Of a DNA stretch of 53,965 bases, positions 21,386 through 27,573 are shown piece by piece; the stretch's first letter is position 1; each line of letters begins with the position of its first letter. Location: assembly GCF_007859315.1 (NCBI RefSeq), contig NZ_VOHA01000036.1, forward strand, positions 1-53,965, given 5' to 3'. This DNA comes from Reyranella sp. CPCC 100927 (GTDB lineage Bacteria; Pseudomonadota; Alphaproteobacteria; Reyranellales; Reyranellaceae). The notes under the pieces were generated by a model that did no database searches, was not told where the DNA came from, and saw nothing but the letters and a program-made list of their open reading frames with translations. The translations under genes were made by a program, and so were the position numbers.

Positions 21386-22348
21386 TCACATGAACAGCTT
21401 CTCGCCCTTCATATCCTTGTAGAGACCGGCGACGAATTCGCCGTAGCCGTTGTAGAGCTGGGTGGGGATGCGCTCGTCGCTGCCCAGCAGCTTCTCGCTG
21501 GCCTGGCTCCAGCGCGGGTGCGGTACTTCCGGGTTGATGTTAGCCCAGAAGCCGTACTCTTCCTTGATCAGCGCCTCCCAGAACGAGACCGGCCGCTTGT
21601 CGCTGAAGGTGAAGCGCACGATCGACTTCACGTGCTTGAAGCCGTACTTCCACGGTGTCGCCAGGCGCAACGGGGCGCCGTTCTGCGGCACGATCGGTTT
21701 GCCATAGAGCCCGGTGGCGATGAACGACAGCTCGTGCGTCGCCTCGGCCATGGTGAGCCCGTCGGTGTAGGGCCAGGGATAGTAGAACTCGCGCTGGCCG
21801 GGGAAGACCGAGGGGTTGGACGCGGTCTGCATCACCAGGTACTTGGCGTCCGCCTTCGGCTGCGCCAGGTCGACCAGCGCCTTCAGCGGGAAGCCGCTGT
21901 AGGGCACCGCCATCGACCAGGTCTCGACGCAACGATGGCGATAGAGCCGCTCCTCCAGCGGCATCTTGGCCAGCAGGTCGTCGAAGCCCAGCTCGATCGG
22001 CTTGTCGATCAGCCCGTCGATCTTCACCATCCAGGGCCGCAGCTTCATGCGCTTCTGGGCATCGCGCCAGATCGTCTTGTGCGAGCCGAACTCGTAGAAA
22101 TTGTTGTAGGTGGTGGCGAGCTTCTCGGCCGTCACCGGCCGGTCGAGCGTGTATTTGGCGTTCTTCGCCACCGGATAGAGCTTGGCCGACGGATCGGCCT
22201 CCTGCCCCAGCGCGCTCGCGAACGGCAGGGCGCCGCCGATCGTGGCCAGACCCATGCCGCGCAGCATCGCGCGTCGGTTCATGTAAAGCGCCTCCGACGT
22301 TGCGGTGCTCTCCGGCAATTCCCAGCCGCGTCTACGCTTGATCAGCAT
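21386..22348 (-). CDS. msrP: Protein-methionine-sulfoxide reductase catalytic subunit MsrP
   Basis: 320 residues. MsrP (YedY) is a periplasmic molybdopterin enzyme that reduces methionine sulfoxide in envelope proteins. The N-terminus MLIKRRRGWELPES...MNRRAMLRGMGLATIGGA is a Tat-type signal preceded by the extension usual in alphaproteobacterial MsrP. The molybdenum ligand Cys lies in YRHRCVETWSMAVPYSGFPL; other signatures are YNNFYEFGSHK, W.VKIDGL and FYYPWPYTDGLTMAEA. The usual membrane heme partner MsrQ is not adjacent. The neighbouring membrane protein gene is Mpo1-like instead. The stop codon abuts the repeat at 21238-21384. Confidence 0.95.
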   Translation of the reverse strand: MLIKRRRGWELPESTATSEALYMNRRAMLRGMGLATIGGALPFASALGQEADPSAKLYPVAKNAKYTLDRPVTAEKLATTYNNFYEFGSHKTIWRDAQKRMKLRPWMVKIDGLIDKPIELGFDDLLAKMPLEERLYRHRCVETWSMAVPYSGFPLKALVDLAQPKADAKYLVMQTASNPSVFPGQREFYYPWPYTDGLTMAEATHELSFIATGLYGKPIVPQNGAPLRLATPWKYGFKHVKSIVRFTFSDKRPVSFWEALIKEEYGFWANINPEVPHPRWSQASEKLLGSDERIPTQLYNGYGEFVAGLYKDMKGEKLFM

Positions 22349-22420: not shown

Positions 22421-22945
22421 TCACCTCGGCGTGACGAGTCCGCGAGGTGTCGCCGTGGCCGATGCCATCGCATCGTGCAGATCCCGGCGCCAGCCCAGCG
22501 CCACCATCGTCTCGGCGACCAGGAACATCGGTCCGATGAAGCCTTGGAACAAATTGTCGATCAGGGCCGGCCGCTTGCCTTCGTAATGGTGGCCGAGGAA
22601 CTGCAGGACCCAGCCGCCGACGAACAGCACGGCAAAGGCGATCCAGGTGTTGGTCGGTCCGAGCTGGCGCGCCAGCCATTCCGCCGCCAGCCAGAACAGG
22701 ACCATGACGAGGCCCATCGCCAGGCCGACACCGACGTCGAGCGCGACCCAGCCCAATACAGCCAGCGCGCCCACGATCAGGGCACCGGTGATCACGGTAT
22801 CGCCGGCCGGGATGCGCCACAGCGCGAGCACCAGCAGCAGCGAAAAGACGATGACGGGGATGCCGATGAAGTGCGTCGCCTTGTTGCGCGGATCACGGTG
22901 GACCGCAGCGTAGCTGGCAAGCTGGCGGGTGAAGAAGGAGCTCAT
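22421..22945 (-). CDS. Mpo1-like (DUF962) membrane protein
   Basis: 174 residues from ATG 22945. Matches the Mpo1/YGL010w family of iron-dependent 2-hydroxy fatty acid dioxygenases, with HRDPRNKATHFIGIPVIVFSLLL at the N-terminus and the conserved QFLGHHYEGKRPALIDNLFQGFIGPMFLVAE near the C-terminus, which together supply the His metal ligands. About four hydrophobic segments (residues 25-110) predict an inner-membrane protein. The frame could start at 23041, but those residues derive from a repeat (23002-23037), so the internal ATG is chosen. In bacteria the substrate is not established; alpha-oxidation of hydroxy fatty acids is the family-based expectation. Confidence 0.88.
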   Translation of the reverse strand: MSSFFTRQLASYAAVHRDPRNKATHFIGIPVIVFSLLLVLALWRIPAGDTVITGALIVGALAVLGWVALDVGVGLAMGLVMVLFWLAAEWLARQLGPTNTWIAFAVLFVGGWVLQFLGHHYEGKRPALIDNLFQGFIGPMFLVAETMVALGWRRDLHDAMASATATPRGLVTPR

Positions 22946-23001
22946 GATTGGCCTCCCTTTCGGGGGGCCTACAGTAGCGCGCTGTCGCAACGGGTGCCAC
23001 T

Positions 23002-23037
23002 GCCTGGGAGCGCGGGCGCTCGCCCGCGCCCCCAGGC
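23002..23037. repeat. GGGAGCGCGGGCG-type hairpin
   Basis: 17-bp arms (23002-23018 with 23021-23037; one mismatch) around a 2-base loop. It carries the GGGAGCGCGGGC word also found at 1410-1421 and, partly, at 23588-23606. It lies between the candidate selenoprotein gene and the Mpo1-like gene and may act as a transcript-end hairpin for the former. Confidence 0.7.
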
Positions 23038-23060
23038 GCATGATTGGCGATACGAGACCC

Positions 23061-23495
23061 TTAGGTACGCGTCCCGGTCATCTCCTGGATCCTGGGCCAG
23101 ATCGTGTCTTTCCAGCCGCCGTTGCCGGTGGCGGTCAGCACGATTTTCTGGTTCTGGGCGATGATGAACCGCGGCGTGACATTGCCGCGCTGCGCGCCCT
23201 CGTCGCTCATCAGGAATTCCGTGAGGATCCAGCGCGCCTCGGCCGGCCAGGATTCCTCCTTGAGGATCAGCGAGCCGTTGGCAGGATGCACGACGTGGTA
23301 GTCAAGTTTCTTGAATGCGTCGGAAGCCTTGAAACCGGGTTCGGACTGGGCACGCCAGATCTTGCAGCCGCCTCAAAGCTCGTGGCCGACGAAGGTCACC
23401 GAGATCCGGGACCCCTGGGCGCGGGTCGGTACGACCAGCGCCGGCGCCACCGCGAGGGACAAGCCACCCGCGACCAGCAATCGGCGATAGAGCAT
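23061..23495 (-). CDS. Exported thioredoxin-fold protein with in-frame TGA in its CxxC position (candidate selenoprotein)
   Basis: From ATG 23495, preceded by a perfect AAGGAGGT, one frame runs 145 codons to 23061 with a single internal TGA at codon 41 (23373-23375). Residues 1-27 form an export signal (MLYRRLLVAGG...PTRAQG). Then comes strand ISVTFVGHEL, the TGA, and GGC, so the site reads (TGA)-Gly-Gly-Cys44 exactly where thioredoxin-fold proteins carry C-x-x-C. Downstream coding stays intact: a cis-Pro loop GNVTPRFIIAQN (Pro108) and a C-terminal helix WKDTIWPRIQEM, resembling SoxS/SoxW-type periplasmic thioredoxins. Either TGA encodes selenocysteine (U-x-x-C) or it is a recent nonsense mutation. 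An isolated frame starting at 23291 would lack signal, first strand and active site. Likely role: periplasmic thiol/disulfide exchange. Confidence 0.7.
23346..23358 (-). promoter_or_regulatory. Possible minimal bacterial SECIS hairpin after the in-frame TGA
   Basis: In the mRNA, CUGG pairs with CCAG around loop CGUGC. The loop begins 19 nt after the UGA and has G as its second base. Published bacterial SECIS rules ask for a loop about 16-37 nt after UGA with a G among its first two bases, so position and loop fit. The 4-bp stem is short, and chance occurrence in GC-rich DNA is easy. Confidence 0.3.
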
Positions 23496-23618
23496 GCAAC
23501 CTCCTTGAATGTCACGACTCTCCACGGCCGTGGTGTGGCACAGGACCGGCTGCTTCTGAAAGTGCCCTCACCGCATCGTGACACCTTGGGAGCGCGGGCA
23601 TCCCGCCGGTGCCAGCCT

Positions 23619-24224: not shown

Positions 24225-26306
24225 TCACCGCCCCGCGGCGGCGCGGCGCTTGCCTTCCTCGGCGACCTTCTCGGCGGCGCGGCCGGCCATCTCCTGCAGA
24301 TGGTCGAACTCGGCATGGTACGTGCCGACGCCCTGGGTGGCCGAGCGGATCTCGATGATCAGGTCGCCGATCTCCGACTCCGGCATCAGTGCCACCACCT
24401 CGTCCCAGCCCGGCCAGCCGGGCCGCGCGTCGAAGCCCAGCAGCTGGCCGCGGCGGCCCGACACCAGGCGCTGGATGCGCGAGGTCGCGTCGCTGGGCGC
24501 TGCGATCGTCACCTTCAGGATGGGCTCGAGCAGCACCGGATCGCACTTGGGCATGGCCTCGACCATGGCCACGCGCGCCGCCTGCTTGAACGACATCTCC
24601 GAGCTGTCGACCGTGTGGTACTGGCCGTCGAACAGGGTGACCGAGAGGTCGACCACCGGCTGGCCCAGCGGGCCCTGCTTGAGATAGTCGACGACGCCCA
24701 TCTCGACGGCGGGGATGAAGTTGCGCGGCACCACGCCGCCCACGATCTTGTCGATGAATTTGAAGCCCTCGCCGCGGCCCAGCGGCTGGATCTCGATCTT
24801 GACGTCGCCGAACTGGCCGTGGCCGCCGGTCTGCCGCTTGTAGCGGCCGTGCTGCTGGGCGCCTTTGCGGATCGTCTCCTTGTAGGCGACGCGGGGCGGA
24901 CTGCTGTCGACCGGCACGTTGTAGCGTGTGGCGAGCTTCTCCAGCGCCACGCGCAGGTGCATCTCGCCCTGGCCGCGGATCAGGAATTCGCCGGTGTCAT
25001 CGCGATGGCCGGCCGACAGCGATGGATCCTCCTCGATGATCTTGTGCAACGCCGTCGACAGCTTCACCTCATCGCTGCGGTTCTTGGGCATGATGGCCAA
25101 CCCGTACACCGGCAGCTCGGCAGCGGTGTGGTCGGGTGCTTCCACCGTGCCGGACGCCGACAGGATCTGTCCGGCCGACAGGGCCTCGACCTTGGCCAGG
25201 GCGACCAGGTCGCCCTGCTTGGCCTGCGCCAGCTTGTCCAGCCGCTGGCCGAACATGCGGAACATGCCGCCGATGCGGGTCGAGCCCAGGGTCTGGCCTT
25301 CCGATACCGTGCCCGCCCAGACGCGGCTCAGCGACAACTTGCCGGCATGCGCCTGGTGCGAGACCTTGAAGCATTCGGCGATGCTGGCGCCGTTGACCTC
25401 GATGCCGCGGCGCTTGGCGGTCTCGGGTGCGAAGGGCGTGTCGTGACGCAGCGCCTTGAGCAGACGGCGCACGCCGCTCTCGTGCTCGCCGGCACCCAGC
25501 AGCACCGGTGCGATCAGGTCGGCGCCGAACTCGTCGTGCAGGTCGCGGTAGATCAGCGACTTCTCGGGCGCCACGTCCTCGATCAGCTGTTCCAGCAAGG
25601 TGTCGTCGAACTCGGCCAAGGTCTCCAGCATCTCGCGGCGCGCATCGTTCTCGCGCGGCAGCAATTCGGCCGGCATCTCGATCAGGTCGGAGGCGGAGCC
25701 CTGCTTGTAGCGATAGGCGCGTTCGCTCACCAGGTCGACGTAGCCCTGGATCTCCTCGCTGCCGTCGGTGTTGGTCTTGCGGATCGGCACCTGGCGCAGC
25801 ACCAGCTTGCGCTCCGACACCGACTGCAGGGCGGCCAGCAGATCGCGCACGCGCGCGTGCGCCGTATCCATCTTGTTGACGAAGAACAGGTGCGGCACAT
25901 GGCGCGCTTCCAGCGCCCGCAGCAGCGGCGCCAGCACCGCCACGCGGTCGGGCACCGGCTCGCACACGATCACCGCGGCGTCGCACACGGCCAGCGCCGC
26001 CAGCGTGTCATGCTGGAATTCGATCGAACCCGGGCAGTCGATGAAGGTCCACGAGTCACCGAAATAGGTGCAGGACGCGACATTGAGCTCGGTGCCCATG
26101 CCGAGCTTGCGCGCCTCGGGCGCGCCGTCGCCGACCGAGGCGCCGTCGCGCGGCCGGCCGCGGCGGTTGATCGCGCCGGTCGCGAACAGCAGCGTTTCCA
26201 GCAGCGTGGTTTTTCCGGAGAGGTAGGGTCCGCACAGGGCGACGACGCGGTTGGCGCCGCCGCCCGCGCGTTCCGCGCCCGTTGATACGATCGTGGTGTC
26301 TGCCAT
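24225..26306 (-). CDS. EF-G-like translational GTPase (second-copy type)
   Basis: 693 residues, the length of EF-G, from ATG 26306 (GGAGG upstream). Domain order as in EF-G: GTPase domain, beta-barrel with AGKLSLSRVWAGTVSEGQTLGS, then domains III-V (GEMHLRVALEKL; AYKETIRKGAQQHGRYKRQTGGHGQFGDV; GVVDYLKQGPLGQPVVDL; EPILKVTIAAPSD). The G-motifs deviate from canonical EF-G: P-loop GPYLSGKT (26-33), G3 DCPGSIEF (90-97) with Ser in place of the catalytic His, and intact NKMD (144-147). It is therefore unlikely to be the housekeeping translocase; a ribosome-associated or stress-specific paralog is more likely. No rpsL/rpsG/tuf neighbours are present. Confidence 0.9.
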   Translation of the reverse strand: MADTTIVSTGAERAGGGANRVVALCGPYLSGKTTLLETLLFATGAINRRGRPRDGASVGDGAPEARKLGMGTELNVASCTYFGDSWTFIDCPGSIEFQHDTLAALAVCDAAVIVCEPVPDRVAVLAPLLRALEARHVPHLFFVNKMDTAHARVRDLLAALQSVSERKLVLRQVPIRKTNTDGSEEIQGYVDLVSERAYRYKQGSASDLIEMPAELLPRENDARREMLETLAEFDDTLLEQLIEDVAPEKSLIYRDLHDEFGADLIAPVLLGAGEHESGVRRLLKALRHDTPFAPETAKRRGIEVNGASIAECFKVSHQAHAGKLSLSRVWAGTVSEGQTLGSTRIGGMFRMFGQRLDKLAQAKQGDLVALAKVEALSAGQILSASGTVEAPDHTAAELPVYGLAIMPKNRSDEVKLSTALHKIIEEDPSLSAGHRDDTGEFLIRGQGEMHLRVALEKLATRYNVPVDSSPPRVAYKETIRKGAQQHGRYKRQTGGHGQFGDVKIEIQPLGRGEGFKFIDKIVGGVVPRNFIPAVEMGVVDYLKQGPLGQPVVDLSVTLFDGQYHTVDSSEMSFKQAARVAMVEAMPKCDPVLLEPILKVTIAAPSDATSRIQRLVSGRRGQLLGFDARPGWPGWDEVVALMPESEIGDLIIEIRSATQGVGTYHAEFDHLQEMAGRAAEKVAEEGKRRAAAGR

Positions 26307-26643
26307 GATTAAGTTCCTCCCGCGCGCCCGAACCCTTTTGGCTCGTCGTGTCTCCCCGGTCGGCGACCGGGCGGGAGAGAGGCCTCGCGGCCCTTCCGTT
26401 GCGCCCCGCGTCCGTGCGCGTCGGGATCGACGACACGTACCGCCATCACACCGGCGCGCCGCAAACGCGGACAGCACCCGCAACGCCGACAACAGGGCAA
26501 CTGACGACACAAGCGTCCACCCGTCCGGCCCGCCGAGTCAATGGCAACTGGGGAAAATGGCAGCGAAACGATCACCGAGTAGGCCGGCGACGCCGGCCGC
26601 CATCTCAGGTACCATGGCGGGGGTGACACCGTTCGGGGAGGCC
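26307..26643. other. Divergent intergenic region between EF-G-like and FGE-type genes
   Basis: About 340 bases without a convincing gene. It holds a 7-bp perfect hairpin (26355-26361 with 26365-26371, GGC loop) of the CTCTCCC...GGGAGAG repeat type. Promoters for both divergent genes should lie here; none could be picked out with confidence. Confidence 0.5.
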
Positions 26644-27573
26644 ATGTTGCGTTGGGCGCCGCTTGTTCTTTCAATCCTCATCGCGAGCCCGGCCTGGGCG
26701 CAACCGACCTCCACATCGACCGTTCGCGACTGCCCGACCTGCCCGGAGATGGTGCCCGTCCGCGGCGGTACCTTCGTGATGGGCGCCGCGCCGGGCGAGG
26801 AGGAACGCGATGGCGTGCCGCCCCACGTGCGCGGCCGCTCGCAGCCGCAGCGACAGGTCGTCATCGCGCCGTTCCTGATCGGTCGCTTCGAGGTGACCGT
26901 GGATGAGTTCACCGAGTACCAGCGCGCGACCGGTCATCGTATCGACGCGGCGTGCTGGTCCGAAGGCATCGACGGCAAGCGCCGGCAGTATCCCGGTATC
27001 ACCTGGCGCAATCCCGGTTTCCCGCAGACCGGCCGCGATCCTGTGGTGTGCGTGAACTGGTTCGAGGCGCGCGGTTATGCCGGCTGGCTGTCGCAGCGTA
27101 CCGGCAAGCGCTACCGGCTGCCGAGCGAGGCGGAATGGGAGTATGCCGCGCGCGCCGGCAGCGCCGGGTCACGCCCGTTCGCGTCAGACCCCCAGACTCT
27201 CTGCCGGCACATCAACTTCGGCGACCTGGCGCTGGCCGACGCCTACAAGCATCGGCGCGACACCGCACGTTATGGCGTCTGCAATGACGGCTATGCCTTC
27301 ACGTCGCCGGTCGGTGCCTTCCCGCCCAACGCGTTCGGGTTGCACGACATGCTGGGCAATGCCTGGGAGTGGACGGAGGACTGCTGGCATCCGACCTACG
27401 ACGGCGCGCCGATCGACCACAAGCCGCGCTATACCGGCGACTGCGAGAAGCGCTCGGTGCGGGGCGGCGGCTGGTTCAACGATCCCTGGCGCTCGCGGTC
27501 GGCCTTCCGCTTCCGCGACTCCAACGGCCACAACGGCAACATGCTCGGCTTCCGCCTGGTCCGGGATCCTTGA
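26644..27573 (+). CDS. Exported FGE/sulfatase-modifying-factor (SUMF1) domain protein
   Basis: 309 residues from ATG 26644, with GGGGAGG just upstream. Signal peptide MLRWAPLVLSILIASPAWAQ, then an SUMF1/formylglycine-generating-type C-lectin-like fold: MVPVRGGTFVMGAAPGEEERDGVPPH, FLIGRFEVTVDEFTEYQRAT, PVVCVNWFEARGYAGWLSQRTGKRYRLPSEAEWEYAARAG, NAFGLHDMLGNAWEWTEDCW, SVRGGGWFNDPWRSRSAFR and the C-terminal GFRLVRDP. The paired active-site Cys of true sulfatase-activating enzymes is not seen near the C-terminus and no sulfatase gene is near, so it is probably a binding or accessory member of this large family. It carries six or so other Cys that may form disulfides in the periplasm. Confidence 0.9.
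   Translation: MLRWAPLVLSILIASPAWAQPTSTSTVRDCPTCPEMVPVRGGTFVMGAAPGEEERDGVPPHVRGRSQPQRQVVIAPFLIGRFEVTVDEFTEYQRATGHRIDAACWSEGIDGKRRQYPGITWRNPGFPQTGRDPVVCVNWFEARGYAGWLSQRTGKRYRLPSEAEWEYAARAGSAGSRPFASDPQTLCRHINFGDLALADAYKHRRDTARYGVCNDGYAFTSPVGAFPPNAFGLHDMLGNAWEWTEDCWHPTYDGAPIDHKPRYTGDCEKRSVRGGGWFNDPWRSRSAFRFRDSNGHNGNMLGFRLVRDP

Follow-up and report, generated by a model that had tools for sequence, protein, structure and literature searches.

A putative UxxC selenoprotein with a predicted thioredoxin-like fold, conserved near msrP in Reyranella, Vineibacter and their relatives

We identified a gene in Reyranella sp. CPCC 100927 in which an in-frame TGA at codon 41 almost certainly encodes selenocysteine (Sec), judging by all of the sequence tests that were run. 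The window analysed, a stretch of 53,965 nucleotides, is one contig (C30) of a genome of 9.08 Mb in 81 contigs. The product is very likely a selenocysteine oxidoreductase, a small thioredoxin-like protein with a putative Tat-type signal and a U-G-G-C motif in which Sec comes first; this estimate excludes any partnership with the methionine sulfoxide reductase MsrP, which is weighed separately. Coordinates of the features are presented in Table 1.

Table 1. Features of the putative selenoprotein gene and its neighbours in the window.
Feature	Position	Strand	Remarks
Putative selenoprotein gene, 144 aa + TAA stop, TGA41 read as Sec	23061..23495	-	conserved frame
Shine-Dalgarno AAGGAGG, 4 nt upstream of ATG	23500..23506	-	
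Predicted N-terminal export signal, codons 1-27, twin-arginine R4R5	23415..23495	-	end and Tat type by inspection
TGA, codon 41, putative selenocysteine	23373..23375	-	
Active-site motif U-G-G-C, codons 41-44	23364..23375	-	
bSECIS hairpin GA-U-CUGG[CGUGC]CCAG-UC, bulged U17, loop G23-U24, 18 nt UGA-to-loop	23344..23361	-	
Pro108 codon (TPRF), cis-Pro position of thioredoxin fold	23172..23174	-	codon by arithmetic from start; model
Mpo1-like (PF06127) gene between selenoprotein gene and msrP	22421..23041	-	in 38/67 related loci
msrP, periplasmic protein-methionine-sulfoxide reductase catalytic subunit	21386..22348	-	NF003767 equivalog, 394.7 bits, cut-off 207
EF-G-like gene, conserved upstream neighbour	24225..26510	-	listed start probably too early

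The gene is a single frame of 145 codons on the minus strand, from ATG at 23495-23493 to TAA at 23063-23061, and holds exactly one in-frame TGA (23375-23373), which is followed by GGC GGC TGC (Gly-Gly-Cys). The residues around U41 read ...VTFVGHEL-U-GGCKIWRAQSEP... A preliminary description of this DNA had placed the frame and its TGA correctly, together with a perfect Shine-Dalgarno site; it had also proposed an export signal and intact sequence past the TGA with a cis-Pro loop, and both of these can be recognised. The signal is MLYRRLLVAGGLSLAVAPALVVPTRAQG and by inspection looks like a Tat signal because of the arginine pair R4, R5, which is kept in all 16 rows of a 16-row alignment. Pro108 of TPRF directly precedes a strand in our structure model, the usual place of the cis-Pro. 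Both flanks of codon 41 are conserved and the TGA sits at the redox-active position, as expected of a bacterial selenoprotein.

Profile searches of the genome identified SelA (534.6 bits) and SelB (446 bits) on one contig, C35, along with a tRNA-Sec (72.9 bits, anticodon TCA). SelD (271.4 bits) lies on contig C39, which also carries a formate dehydrogenase alpha subunit (1516.5 bits) with one in-frame TGA preceding H-G-P. Decoding of UGA as Sec is therefore expected in this organism, and the lack of selA, selB, selD and tRNA-Sec that the preliminary description had named as grounds for rejection did not occur, nor did any other of the grounds it had named.

The TGA is conserved at codon 41 far beyond chance. 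Among 101 genomes searched (this genome and 100 relatives), matches were obtained in 61, all of them of the family of the window, which we take to consist of Reyranella, Vineibacter and relatives. Close copies, defined by at least 51% identity and exactly one TGA, are present in 55 of the 61 family genomes, giving 56 genes, two of them in one genome; all 56 have the TGA at codon 41 and a Cys codon, TGC or TGT, three codons on at position 44. The genomes lacking a TGA copy at this identity are G004, G011, G025, G035, G037 and G053. A second scan, of genomes with titles (named or binned), gave 67 loci, of which 65 have TGA and two have TGC at codon 41; this is not an independent sample, since the species largely overlap those of the first set. 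It includes Vineibacter terrae CC-CFT640 (82%), Reyranella soli, R. massiliensis 521, R. aquatilis, Enhydrobacter aerosaccus ATCC 27094 and many metagenome bins, two of which are titled Asaia and Bradyrhizobium, names that may be wrong. In the NCBI taxonomy, Reyranella belongs to Reyranellaceae while Vineibacter and Enhydrobacter are unplaced within the same order. Homologs with TGA or Cys at codon 41, which the preliminary description had sought as support, thus both exist.

SelA was matched in 56 of the 61 family genomes versus 4 of the 40 others, and tRNA-Sec at 70 bits or more in 36 of the 37 family genomes examined. The four gene-bearing genomes in which SelA was not matched (G033, G034, G047 and G054) are all drafts of 240-770 contigs. 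Five family genomes have SelA and no UGA copy of the gene, so the gene is not obligatory. Searching a plasmid collection gave no match to the protein. Of 385 genomes of the class searched, 9 gave matches: 5 belong to the same family and 4 lie outside it. None of these four has a stop inside; a CxxC is readable in two, the third aligned past the motif only, and the fourth could not be meaningfully aligned.

Such conservation bears on the possibility that the TGA is a nonsense mutation or sequencing error, the catalytic Cys codon of a decaying gene having turned into TGA. A single base change indeed separates TGA from TGC or TGT, and past the TGA a 76-aa frame opens at an internal GTG. This reading is refuted by the conservation of the TGA across species, the same codon being present in 55 of 61 separately assembled genomes, and we give it next to no weight, in agreement with the earlier judgement that a nonsense mutation is unlikely. 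The frame past the TGA is moreover under purifying selection: in six pairs of close relatives, non-synonymous divergence after codon 50 is 0.10-0.21 and synonymous divergence 0.43-0.50. Over codons 42-50, which give only about 5.7 synonymous sites per pair, synonymous divergence is 0-0.18, indicating that the codons of the hairpin described below are frozen. Just as hard to credit is a short regulatory peptide terminated by the TGA, with the remainder translated separately from an internal start; the same GTG, at 23291, would serve for this. The motif Cys and helix 1 of the model both fall between TGA and GTG, a stretch that includes invariant residues (C44, W47 and R48 in 16 rows; C44, K45 and W47-P53 in the seven close rows), and the signal peptide lies solely upstream of the TGA.

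Counting from the U of UGA as 1, which we take to be the origin of the U17, G23 and U24 numbering for an element presumably of the E. coli fdhF type, a hairpin spans positions 15-32 of the mRNA, with a bulged U17 and an apical loop at 22-26 that contains G23-U24. The same layout of U17, G23 and U24 can be formed, as read by eye, after the formate dehydrogenase UGA of the same genome. These three positions are given as fixed sites of the bacterial element in PMC8659212. Every bSECIS constraint printed in PMC13188914 (loop of 3-9 nt, upper stem of 4-16 bp, G at loop position 1 or 2, 16-37 nt from the UGA and an MFE of at most -7.5) accommodates this hairpin: the loop CGUGC is 5 nt long and has G-U at its positions 2 and 3, the stem has 4 bp above and 2 bp under the bulge, the spacing from the UGA is 18 nt and the MFE is -10.4 kcal/mol over 48 nt of the window. 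The check on these bases suggested in the preliminary description therefore came out in favour of a bSECIS element that fits the published model.

Codon usage points in the same direction. K45, R48, A49 and Q50 each use one single codon across the 56 Sec genes, R48 being CGT in all 56 and also in every TGA locus (65) of the second set, which overlaps the first; R109, which lies outside the hairpin, is CGC in 42 and CGT in 5 of the 56. Covariation of the hairpin was tested on 13 sequences against 500 shuffles using five measures. None of the 500 shuffles reached the proportion of paired cells (79.8%), the number of cells changed on both sides (10) or the covariation score (0.247). The other two measures are unexceptional for these 13 sequences, 280 of 500 shuffles being as good for pairs with a double change and 98 of 500 for further pair types. 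The both-side changes are located in the lower stem, while the upper stem yields almost no covariation evidence because it hardly varies.

The two loci with TGC at codon 41 (L164 and L188) are Cys orthologs, with EF-G upstream and msrP downstream. Neither keeps CGT at codon 48, which is CGG in L164 and CGC in L188. L164 (also L081, in genome G006) is probably a decayed Cys copy, since a TAG interrupts it at a Gln codon and the expected start site shows no ATG. G006 also carries a TGA copy, L082, at another locus. Recoding of Sec to UAG in G006 was considered and rejected: the TAG is at a Gln position, codon 41 is TGC and the tRNA-Sec anticodon is TCA. Distant CxxC relatives were also found. 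The orthologs bear on the possibility that UGA is read as another amino acid, through plain read-through or a reassigned code. Nothing beyond the open frame favours this reading, and we regard it as very improbable: TGA ends 6 of the 10 neighbouring frames checked in the window, the tRNA-Sec has the anticodon TCA, the hairpin has SelB-type features, and the two orthologs without TGA have Cys, the residue that normally exchanges with Sec. Taken together, the machinery, the bSECIS hairpin, the conserved TGA and the Cys orthologs support the selenocysteine reading proposed in the preliminary description.

A Ser paralog lies downstream on the same strand in 38 of the 67 loci, 50-271 nt away in 37 and 1778 nt in one. 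One example, L016:1002-1427, has Ser (TCN) at the Sec position. Position 44 is Cys in 36 of the 38 paralogs and Ser in two (S-x-x-C versus S-x-x-S). In the 33 paralogs left after rows of 120 aa or less were set aside, Arg48 is CGC in 25, CGG in 4 and CGT in 2; CGT is likewise found in 2 of the 38 paralogs of the second set. The Ser paralog lacks the codon bias of the hairpin and seems to derive from the Sec form. In a tree of 50 of the 113 collected rows, which kept 39 of the 40 Ser/Cys rows and dropped one partial row, the Ser rows cluster together within the Sec rows; the surrounding forks are weakly supported and several long branches meet there.

Some TGA copies stand apart. L178 (= L105), L158 and L191 (= L082) are without EF-G and msrP alongside, and L105 has a variant motif, U-A-A-C, and a longer linker. 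A second, divergent candidate group of six family genomes (L111, L112, L113, L114, L115 and L116) has TGA in U-G-P-C. This group shares the CGU-loop hairpin, and L115 and L116 pair less well in this register.

The structure model was built from a 101-row alignment with U modelled as Cys. It reaches a pLDDT of 97-99 over residues 31-140, with low confidence in the signal-peptide region, as is expected for signal peptides. This confident model predicts a thioredoxin-like fold: the order of elements is beta-alpha-beta-alpha-beta-beta-alpha, U41 starts helix 1 and Pro108 lies ahead of the next-to-last strand, as in the thioredoxin fold. Foldseek listed thioredoxins first (probability 1.00, best E 8.9e-05), with 13 of 1167 matches at E <= 0.001; among the 50 matches listed, most hits are thioredoxins and TM reaches 0.68 by target and a modest 0.40-0.49 by query. 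The profile gave only weak thioredoxin matches against PDB sequences (best E 0.008), and Thioredoxin_2 matches one Cys ortholog at E = 0.2. Searches of Pfam and of NCBIfam release 20.0, including its named selenoprotein families, gave no match to the selenoprotein up to E = 1. A literature search that included the accessible parts of PMC13188914, PMC9312934 and PMC8124441, and scarcely extended to subscription journals, found no description of the family. The remark in the preliminary description that this subfamily was not recognisable as a described selenoprotein thus stands for the sources covered, and as far as could be searched the family is new.

The EF-G-like gene, the selenoprotein gene and msrP lie on one strand with the selenoprotein in the middle; on the plus strand, the window also holds a gene for a sulfatase-modifying-factor (FGE-like, PF03781) protein at 26251-27573. 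Of the 67 neighbourhood loci, which include both Cys forms, 61 extend 2.5 kb upstream, and 56 of these have EF-G within that distance; 57 extend 3 kb downstream, and 53 of them have msrP there in the same orientation as the selenoprotein gene. By tblastn distances, the msrP match starts 11-156 nt past the selenoprotein match in eight loci. TctC (47 of 67 loci) and enoyl-CoA hydratase (52 of 67) belong to the same block, and since the whole block is conserved, general synteny or an old gene order could explain the adjacency of msrP.

We propose the following mechanism for the protein. SelB bound to the hairpin 18 nt past the UGA would bring Sec-tRNA(Sec) to codon 41 and the ribosome would read through the UGA during translation, as the machinery, the SECIS and the conservation suggest. 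The signal suggests that the folded protein would then be exported to the cell envelope. From the motif and the fold, the selenolate of U41 may rapidly attack an oxidised substrate as a nucleophile, with C44 resolving the intermediate as a Se-S bond. Because the gene lies near msrP, we infer an envelope thiol/selenol oxidoreductase with a role in oxidative repair, possibly working with MsrP on oxidised envelope proteins, the tie to MsrP being one of gene order only. Alternatively, the Sec-Cys pair might bind a metal or metalloid, or handle peroxide or sulfur compounds, instead of partnering MsrP; this falls slightly short of an even chance and is compatible with the Sec part of our explanation. 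According to PMC13188914, about 20% of selenoprotein families have predicted ligand binding, with metals making up about 70% of these predictions, and the second Foldseek match is SoxS, a periplasmic thioredoxin of Paracoccus pantotrophus. The frequency of msrP downstream weakly favours oxidative repair over this alternative, while the restriction of the link to gene order leaves room for it.

PMC8124441 presents formate dehydrogenase as the main user of Sec in Alphaproteobacteria. Of the 33 family genomes with the TGA gene that were searched for formate dehydrogenase alpha (TIGR01553), 8 gave no match at E <= 1e-60, two of the eight being single-contig (G005 and G022). A Molydop_binding search of 11 genomes concerns a C-terminal domain and is blind to an N-terminal TGA. 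The idea that the selenoprotein is the sole reason for the Sec machinery in genomes without formate dehydrogenase is not supported: G004 and G025 have SelA and tRNA-Sec, and neither the UGA selenoprotein gene nor a TIGR01553 match. Other selenoproteins or relics therefore exist, and the family is not established as the maintainer of the Sec trait. We consider unlikely, as a whole, a selenium-based envelope repair module of the Reyranella/Vineibacter family, in which the UxxC selenoprotein (with a tandem Ser S-x-x-C partner derived from it in many Reyranella-like genomes) would act with MsrP on oxidised envelope proteins and, where some lineages lack Sec-formate dehydrogenase, would also help to sustain the Sec system.

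Gene catalogues in which TGA counts as a stop would show this family truncated or missing. Beyond formate dehydrogenase, 55 genomes, one per species, appear to use Sec in a small redox protein that is probably exported. Sec, Cys and Ser forms sharing a gene neighbourhood offer a natural comparison of what selenium contributes to a protein of the thioredoxin fold, and the nearby msrP suggests a role that can be tested.

Compared with known systems, the hairpin shares the bulged U17 and the loop G23-U24 with the E. coli fdhF-type bSECIS, as far as the sources consulted describe it, and differs from it in primary sequence; the six U-G-P-C relatives keep G23-U24 and do not always keep the U bulge. 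The predicted fold is similar to that of SoxS (PDB 3dml, 3d4t; TM 0.68 by target, 0.48 by query), with 16% identity in the structural alignment. The review PMC13188914 gives its coverage as 119 prokaryotic selenoprotein families or subfamilies; a number of these are UxxC thioredoxin-like, and its Table 1 lists Sec-Trx (PF00085), a thiol:disulfide interchange protein (PF13098), SaoT (NF040730) and a HUIPC-motif family (NF047660). As described there, these share with our selenoprotein a thioredoxin-like nature, Sec as the first residue of U-x-x-C and Cys counterparts, which makes the new family one of a known kind. Unlike them, it has no Pfam or NCBIfam match and has so far been found only in the Reyranella/Vineibacter family, where it is set apart by its putative Tat-type signal, its tandem Ser paralog and its place near msrP.
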